DNA of 53,625 nt from Streptomyces sp. A012304. Lineage in GTDB: Bacteria > Actinomycetota > Actinomycetes > Streptomycetales > Streptomycetaceae. Of this stretch, positions 21,923 through 22,105 are shown piece by piece (the stretch's first letter is position 1; each line of letters opens with the position of its first letter). The notes under the pieces are model-generated. The model had not been told where the DNA came from, did not search any database, and saw nothing but the letters and a program-made list of their open reading frames with translations. The stretch covers positions 58,979 to 112,603 of the forward strand of contig NZ_BQUN01000039.1 in NCBI RefSeq assembly GCF_026008495.1, written 5' to 3'. The translations under genes and the position numbers were made by a program.

Positions 21923-22011
21923 GGAGAGGGCAGGATTCGAACCTGCGTGGGCGGGGAAACCACCCGACCGGGAAAACCCGGCCCCCGATCAACCACTCCG
22001 GGCACCTCTCC
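21923..22011 (-). tRNA. tRNA-Ser-like element, copy 1 (aberrant anticodon arm)
   Basis: This 89-nt class II tRNA-like sequence reads 5'-3' from 22011 to 21923. The acceptor stem is GGAGAGG/CCTCTCC, with TG at 8-9, a D-stem CCCG/CGGG with an 11-nt loop containing GTGG, and G26. Then come 17 nt at positions 27-43, a 19-nt variable arm (stem GGGTGG/CCGCCC), a T-arm GCAGG-TTCGAAT-CCTGC and G73. The body fits serine tRNAs (long variable arm, G73). The anticodon arm does not: in the standard register it has C-U and G-G mismatches and would give anticodon UUU with C37. It folds better as a 6-7 bp hairpin closed by a TTTT tetraloop. CCA is not encoded. It is unlikely to decode. Confidence 0.78.
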
Positions 22012-22015
22012 AAGC

Positions 22016-22105
22016 GGAGAGGGCAGGATTCGAACCTGCGCAGGCGGGCAAAACCACCCGACCGGGAAAACCCGGCCCCCGATCAACCACTCCGGGCACC
22101 TCTCC
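22016..22105 (-). tRNA. tRNA-Ser-like element, copy 2 (aberrant anticodon arm)
   Basis: This 90-nt element lies 4 nt from copy 1 and is transcribed first. It is identical to copy 1 except in the variable arm (20 nt here, stem GGGTGG/CCGCCT with a G-U pair and a longer loop). Acceptor, D, anticodon-region and T arms are base-for-base the same, including the TTTT-loop hairpin and G73. Changes confined to the loop and stem of the variable arm, with pairing kept, suggest selection on structure rather than decay. SARP-type repeats lie 68 nt upstream. A tRNA gene finder may call it pseudo, undetermined or Lys(TTT). Confidence 0.78.

Follow-up and report, generated by a model that had tools for sequence, protein, structure and literature searches.

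Anticodon-less serine-type tRNA-like genes accompany VlmA in Streptomyces and are candidate serine carriers for azoxy biosynthesis

Nature offers one tRNA-like RNA that is aminoacylated yet has no anticodon, tmRNA, which is alanylated, contains an mRNA part and acts on the ribosome. The allo-tRNAs and selC-like serine tRNAs keep an anticodon and combine long variable arms with 8/4 or 9/3 acceptor branches, tRNA-Sec has a UCA anticodon and an 8-bp acceptor stem, and the non-proteinogenic tRNA-Gly species of Staphylococcus aureus retain an anticodon. Seryl-tRNA synthetase (SerRS) recognises the long variable arm and the acceptor end of its tRNA, not the anticodon. The closest described biosynthetic system is the valanimycin route, in which VlmA takes serine from seryl-tRNA (PMC12945691, PMC9379638) and VlmI binds upstream of vlmJ and vlmA-vlmH at sites composed of three heptamers (PMC10972967). 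Dedicated tRNAs for non-ribosomal use were already known from the staphylococcal tRNA-Gly species, and the relevant passages of the 2014 review that describes them give the means by which Ser-tRNA is diverted from translation as unknown (PMC4052509).

The window analysed here is the whole stretch of 53,625 nucleotides from Streptomyces sp. A012304 (contig NZ_BQUN01000039.1). It carries an azoxy cluster of the VlmA type, with a VlmA homologue and VlmB/O/R-type neighbours as that type is outlined in PMC9379638, arranged in the order of annotated plasmid clusters. The VlmJ and VlmK families are named in the same source (PMC9379638), and a pair of tRNA-like genes in the window leads into the VlmJ-type and VlmK-type genes. 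The protein-coding genes considered are:

16804-17967, KAS III gene (KAS III domains)
19360..20880 (-), MmgE/PrpD-family gene, VlmK-type (PF03972, PF19305; GTG start taken at 20880)
20877..21863 (-), diacylglycerol-kinase family gene of the VlmJ type, immediately following tRNA-like copy 2 (PF00781, PF19279; start taken at 21863)
22257..23426 (+), fatty acid desaturase gene, transcribed away from the tRNA-like pair (PF00487; start codon provisional)
25276..26256 (-), VlmA-type seryl-tRNA-dependent transferase, LPG_synthase_C / DUF2156 (PF09924, E 1.6e-63; start probably 26256)
26411..28048 (+), aldehyde dehydrogenase (PF00171)
28106..29260 (+), protein in the VlmH position, N-hydroxylase candidate (no Pfam match; gene order as in annotated plasmid clusters; tblastn)
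29257..30549 (+), class III aminotransferase (PF00202)
31207..32205 (+), flavin reductase in the VlmR position (PF01613; the domain occupies residues 148-295, so the true start lies later than 31207)
32085..33200 (+), VlmB-like protein (weak AurF match below cut-off; matches plasmid proteins annotated 'VlmB-like')
35897..37177 (+), second SerRS, VlmL type (TIGR00414, 400.9 bits against a cut-off of 301.65; PDB SerRS matches)
37129..38094 (-), SARP regulator (BTAD), predicted binder of GTCAG repeats (PF03704, PF00486; true start probably later than 38094)

Two class II tRNA-like sequences, 4 nt apart and both on the minus strand, lie exactly where a first, sequence-only reading of the window had placed them:

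22016..22105 (-), anticodon-less tRNA-Ser-like gene, copy 1, 90 nt (ARAGORN, predicted fold, sub-threshold Rfam match; 88.1 bits with covariance model R1, whose alignment includes copy 1 itself)
21923..22011 (-), anticodon-less tRNA-Ser-like gene, copy 2, 89 nt (ARAGORN, predicted fold; 91.8 bits with R1)

Both copies have the body of a class II tRNA-Ser, with a 7-bp acceptor stem, a D arm, a long variable arm, a T arm containing GGTTCRAATCC, and G73. The decoding loop has been lost and the other arms of the tRNA have been kept. Each copy is predicted to fold as a cloverleaf in which a hairpin with a TTTT tetraloop replaces the anticodon arm, and dinucleotide shuffles folded equally well in 0 of 200 trials for the 21923 copy and 2 of 200 for the 22016 copy. 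ARAGORN reported both as tRNA genes ('tRNA-???', with a 2-nt 'anticodon') and assigned no amino acid to either, in agreement with the earlier view that the pair lacks a working anticodon. The copies had also been said to differ only in the variable arm; differences are indeed found there, but also just after it.

In an Rfam search of the window no family reached its gathering score. The best sub-threshold match of the two copies was tRNA-Sec, scoring 36.7 and 35.2 bits where 47 are required (E about 1e-5). Identity with tRNA-Sec (RF01852) was ruled out by the score below the gathering threshold, the lack of a UCA anticodon loop and the 7-bp acceptor stem, and tmRNA was ruled out since ARAGORN reports none in the window. 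Four normal tRNA-Ser genes (GCT, TGA, CGA and GGA) are present in the host genome, and these two are the only element copies detected there.

The pair is not a chance structure, as the family recurs in many genomes. An exact pattern of the acceptor and D arms gave 77 matching stretches, spread over 17 named genomes of Streptomyces and Kitasatospora and in many cases several to a genome. This pattern and the script's regular expressions fix most of the acceptor, D and T arms and leave the anticodon and variable arms free, so that conservation of the former is partly due to selection by the search. In all of 120 copies counted (not deduplicated, the stem being fixed by the search pattern) the acceptor stem is followed by G73 and C74, the D-loop GG is retained in all 28 aligned copies, and the acceptor/T arrangement is 7 + 5 bp. 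The anticodon place and the variable arm vary in sequence and length among copies and remain hairpins. Of 112 distinct copies, 111 could be tested for an anticodon arm, the other being without the D-arm pattern required by the script. None of the 111 had a normal arm (5-bp stem, 7-nt loop, U33, normal register) and none passed as a decoding tRNA-Ser (7-nt loop, serine anticodon, U33); one near-miss had four of five anticodon-stem pairs plus U33, and loops at the anticodon place folded as 3-6 nt. An ordinary or mis-called tRNA was rejected on this count. ARAGORN identities were contradictory across copies (Pro, Ser, Arg, Ala and ???). A phage origin was also rejected: none of 285 matched phage records covered 80% of the query, and among the 20 of these 285 matches listed, the T-arm end alone was aligned.

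Further copies were sought with R1, a covariance model built from 28 copies with the window represented among them; its class-wide matches in G419, G563 and G562 lie outside this set. Elements were called at 60 bits, a line set after the scores were known. In the genus sample the lowest element scored 63.6 bits and the next candidate 53.4, with ordinary tRNAs below; in the class sample the corresponding scores were 70.2 and 57.5 bits. In each genome R1 was applied to no more than 14 candidates in the genus sample or 11 in the class sample, and VlmA was scored for no more than 7 or 5, so that copy counts are lower bounds.

Among 295 Streptomyces genomes, R1 detected the element in 35 (at least 92 copies) and VlmA was present in 61 (E at most 1e-40). 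VlmA was found in 34 of the 35 element genomes against 27 of the 260 element-free genomes (Fisher p 1.1e-26), in counts that are raw with respect to relatedness. The remaining element genome, G168, was scored as VlmA-negative in this test despite a relative 2.4 kb from the element; this distant homologue (36.5% identity) is the only VlmA relative beside its element. Under a stricter VlmA cut of at least 386 bits, picked after the scores were known, the table became 33, 2, 2 and 258 (p 6e-39). All 17 named genomes from the pattern search carry VlmA at 388 bits or more, and at least four of them share VlmA coordinates with genomes of the 295. When 374 genomes were sampled across the class, with some Streptomyces shared with the first sample, four contained elements; all four were VlmA-positive and had the four best VlmA scores, against VlmA in 4 of the 370 others. 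One of the four, G562, is from another family; its three tandem copies lie 0.96 kb from a SerRS gene and share their contig with VlmA, some 24 kb away.

Plasmids gave a similar picture, several of them being near-copies of one another. All 11 Streptomyces plasmid records with VlmA were among the 14 records with an element; in four of the 11 the match was to the T arm alone, and R1 confirmed three of these four. A search of other vlmA clusters for similar elements had been suggested, and in all eight of the 11 plasmid loci that were fetched an R1 match lay within 10 kb of VlmA. Neither of two non-Streptomyces VlmA loci had an element within that distance, and three of the 14 element plasmids had no VlmA on the same record.

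Element-bearing genomes also cluster on a VlmA tree. In a quick tree of 49 VlmA rows, with 13 of 46 inner branches weak and some of the element-free VlmA genomes represented, the element state changed twice against a mean of 9.3 after shuffling, and none of 500 shuffles was as low. Two of the 51 rows extracted, G168 (with element) and G290 (without), were left out, and G168 would probably add a state change. No element was found in 27 of the 61 VlmA genomes of the genus sample, and 25 of these 27 have VlmA scores below 380 bits; seven of the 27 were fetched. The main element branch includes the VlmA of G073 and one of G086's two, although neither genome has an element, and the clusters concerned (L170-L172) showed neither element nor SerRS in the fetched stretch. 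These clusters likely represent a loss of the element and a natural control. Some of the element-free VlmA genomes may be explained by use of alanyl-tRNA, as proposed for the azodyrecin cluster, in which the synthetase gene is absent (PMC9379638).

The cluster SerRS had been put forward as the charging partner of the pair. SerRS of the window type (at least 585 bits, the next score being 529) occurs in 16 of the 295 genomes, and all 16 have the element, but the cluster SerRS is not an obligate partner: no SerRS was found in the fetched stretches of 10 genomes with a linked element and VlmA, and of others. The housekeeping SerRS probably suffices where the cluster SerRS is absent, as it often is, and the RNA, more than the extra SerRS, thus appears to be the constant partner of VlmA.

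Upstream of the elements, an alignment of the 87 of 115 regions that have the anchor GTGAACGG (28 were left out) revealed three GTCAG repeats with an 11-bp period and a TGnCAnnnT -10-like box. Scored on the 5-letter core and not the full heptamer, repeats with at least 12 of 15 matches preceded 107 of 118 first copies; they occurred in 9 of 1180 control windows, and at none of 18 tandem followers and none of 60 flanks of 30 of the genome's own 68 tRNA genes. A simple sigma-70 search of the upstream regions was uninformative (3.2% of 125 copies versus 1.0% of controls). The arrangement agrees with the description of SARP sites in PMC10972967, as heptamer-type direct repeats spaced at about 11 bp near a -10 box. 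Nine sites with at least 13 matches are present in the window against 0.2 expected, and such a site precedes, among others, the tRNA-like pair, the desaturase and KAS III genes, the operon led by the aldehyde dehydrogenase, and a polyketide synthase ORF (9518-15250). The promoter features are:

17934..17960 (-), SARP-type operator facing the KAS III gene, 15/15 matches (the true start of the gene must lie below these repeats)
22158..22163 (-), -10-like hexamer CAGAGT of the conserved promoter (TGnCAnnnT ... GTGAACGG), from column conservation
22174..22200 (-), SARP-type operator upstream of the tRNA-like pair (GTCAG, ATCAG, ATCAG, 11-bp period; 13/15 matches; predicted SARP binding)
22219..22245 (+), SARP-type operator facing the desaturase gene, 14/15 matches
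26320..26346 (+), SARP-type operator facing the aldehyde dehydrogenase-led operon, 15/15 matches

As judged from these repeats, a predicted SARP-type promoter is common to the element and the biosynthetic genes in the window. A further perfect three-repeat operator (15/15; 38727-38753, plus strand), with the -10-like box TGCATAGT, has no clear plus-strand gene downstream; the gene that follows is of LuxR type and lies on the minus strand (38956-39576). This operator possibly drives a small RNA or a small ORF.

We consider it likely that the pair encodes serine-type, tRNA-shaped RNAs which would accept serine and feed VlmA, as a pool of seryl-tRNA that the ribosome should be unable to use. The cluster SARP would co-activate the elements and the biosynthetic genes, the RNAs would be matured by RNase P and CCA addition, the cluster SerRS where present and otherwise the housekeeping SerRS would charge them, and VlmA would transfer the serine from the charged element to a hydroxylamine intermediate. 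The missing anticodon loop suggests that the elements are excluded from decoding, and their co-occurrence with VlmA suggests that VlmA uses them. As they should not read codons, many copies would raise the serine supply and leave translation undisturbed. The core of the original proposal, a dedicated, non-decoding serine-type tRNA used by the DUF2156/VlmA protein, is strongly supported by comparison, through co-occurrence, head-to-head placement, clustering in the VlmA tree and the shared SARP-type promoter; transcription, serylation and transfer are inferred.

A regulatory or decoy RNA, which would tune SerRS, VlmA or a tRNA-modifying enzyme by binding to it and would not itself donate serine, could account for part of these data, because a SARP-type promoter and co-occurrence with VlmA fit any RNA of the pathway and loss of the decoding loop fits a role in binding only. 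This explanation appears improbable in view of the G73-C74 found after the acceptor stem in 120 of 120 copies (not deduplicated), the presence of up to 10 copies, which suits supply better than tuning, and the substrate of the partner enzyme family, which is seryl-tRNA (PMC12945691).

The genomic placement of the elements is consistent with a serine carrier for VlmA. Unguided clustering of neighbouring ORFs ranked a DUF2156/VlmA-type protein first, at 13 loci (12 distinct, L005 and L087 being the same), where vlmA is always on the opposite strand and head-to-head with the element; nine vlmA-type proteins beside elements elsewhere share 66-70% identity with the window VlmA. Two element sites recur, the divergent promoter of vlmA and the stretch just before the VlmJ-type gene. 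Beyond VlmA and an ORF antisense to vlmA, no neighbour occurs in more than eight loci (30 largest ORF clusters, families unannotated), and rarer neighbours recognised by eye include SARP-like (seven loci) and TetR-like (four loci) proteins. In the 35 element genomes, an element lies on the VlmA contig in 28, within 20 kb of VlmA in 27 and within 1 kb in 15, the distant relative of G168 being counted as its VlmA. In four draft genomes (G102, G113, G194 and G286) the element and VlmA are on separate short contigs and linkage cannot be told.

The elements are not confined to the cluster. Copy number reaches 10 per genome, with 6-10 copies on several contigs in G003, G033, G258 and G282, and the long chromosomes of DHE7-1, S. 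griseofuscus and S. lavendulae carry copies toward their ends. Around the VlmA-SerRS-SARP clusters of G033, G117 and G146 no element was found within about 19 kb on each side (less than 2 kb on one side in G146, where the contig ends), and 4-8 copies lie on other contigs of these genomes, in G117 on a plasmid. With such elements in trans, linkage alone does not explain the association with VlmA. Wide occurrence at unrelated sites, which the sequence-only reading had named as evidence against itself, was found as far as location goes, since some genomes have 4-10 copies of which most are far from vlmA or on other contigs; nevertheless, the dispersed-copy genomes tested carry VlmA and most copies keep the SARP-type promoter.

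Dispersal of this kind, which reaches 10 copies in a genome and extends over several contigs and linear plasmids, could also be expected of a mobile or regulatory RNA, and the elements could be a mobile, SINE-like tRNA-derived repeat or an attachment-site remnant that sits in these clusters by happenstance. We regard this as very unlikely, because in the samples the elements are nearly confined to VlmA genomes (34 of 35; 17 of 17), the same SARP-type promoter precedes 107 of 118 first copies, recurrent oriented sites beside vlmA or the VlmJ-type gene are used, and no neighbour but VlmA and the antisense ORF is found in more than eight loci (30 largest ORF clusters).

On three plasmids (L109, L111 and L115: pSCO1, the NBC_00557 plasmid and pSGRIFU1) elements occur but the record shows no match to VlmA. 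The second contig of G117 has the element coordinates of the NBC_00557 plasmid, and VlmA is on the G117 chromosome; likewise, the S. griseofuscus genome (L049) carries VlmA. Locus-tag numbering has gaps at several plasmid elements (L112, L114, L115 and others), for example between OG844_RS00460 and RS00470, a pattern suggestive of an RNA feature in the original annotation; RNA genes are not listed in the PLSDB gene table. No such gap occurs at the elements of L110 and L120.

Decaying tRNA pseudogenes, or normal tRNAs misannotated with an odd anticodon, would account for the inconsistent ARAGORN anticodons and are scarcely credible, given that the hairpin at the anticodon place is kept while its sequence varies (75 distinct segments, mean z -1.9, with some segments cut short by the script), that the promoter is conserved and that the element is present in another family (G562).

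The wider interpretation, which we hold to be likely, is that the elements form a new class of tRNA in which decoding has been abandoned: pathway-owned amino acid carriers under a SARP-type promoter, multiplied in trans on chromosomes and linear plasmids, that would provide a private serine pool. The open-access PMC literature, the scope of our search as distinct from subscription papers and preprints, yielded no anticodon-less tRNA in a biosynthetic cluster in the texts retrieved, and the main text of a 2026 review makes no mention of an anticodon, isoacceptor, tRNA-like or dedicated tRNA (PMC12945691). If the interpretation is correct, a pathway-controlled, non-decoding tRNA pool would answer directly how Ser-tRNA is diverted from translation. 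It would also offer a lever on product titres and a seryl-tRNA that should not mistranslate, and genome mining could use the element to flag one large group of VlmA clusters.

In its enzymes and control the window resembles the valanimycin VlmL/VlmA route of S. viridifaciens, sharing a DUF2156/LPG_synthase_C seryl-tRNA transferase, an extra SerRS and SARP control (PMC12945691, PMC9379638, PMC4052509, PMC10972967). It differs in its candidate dedicated tRNA, which is absent from the published descriptions of that route on which our comparison with vlm is based. The elements resemble tmRNA in lacking an anticodon, although ARAGORN finds no tmRNA in the window, and they share a long variable arm with the allo-tRNAs and selC-like tRNAs, from which they differ in their 7 + 5 bp arrangement and the lack of an anticodon. 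The cell-wall tRNA-Gly isoacceptors of S. aureus are likewise tRNA genes reserved for non-ribosomal transfer, and are described as escaping translation through weak EF-Tu binding, with GG at positions 18-19 replaced (PMC4052509). Unlike these, the elements keep the D-loop GG (28 of 28), have lost the anticodon loop and have a SARP-type promoter.
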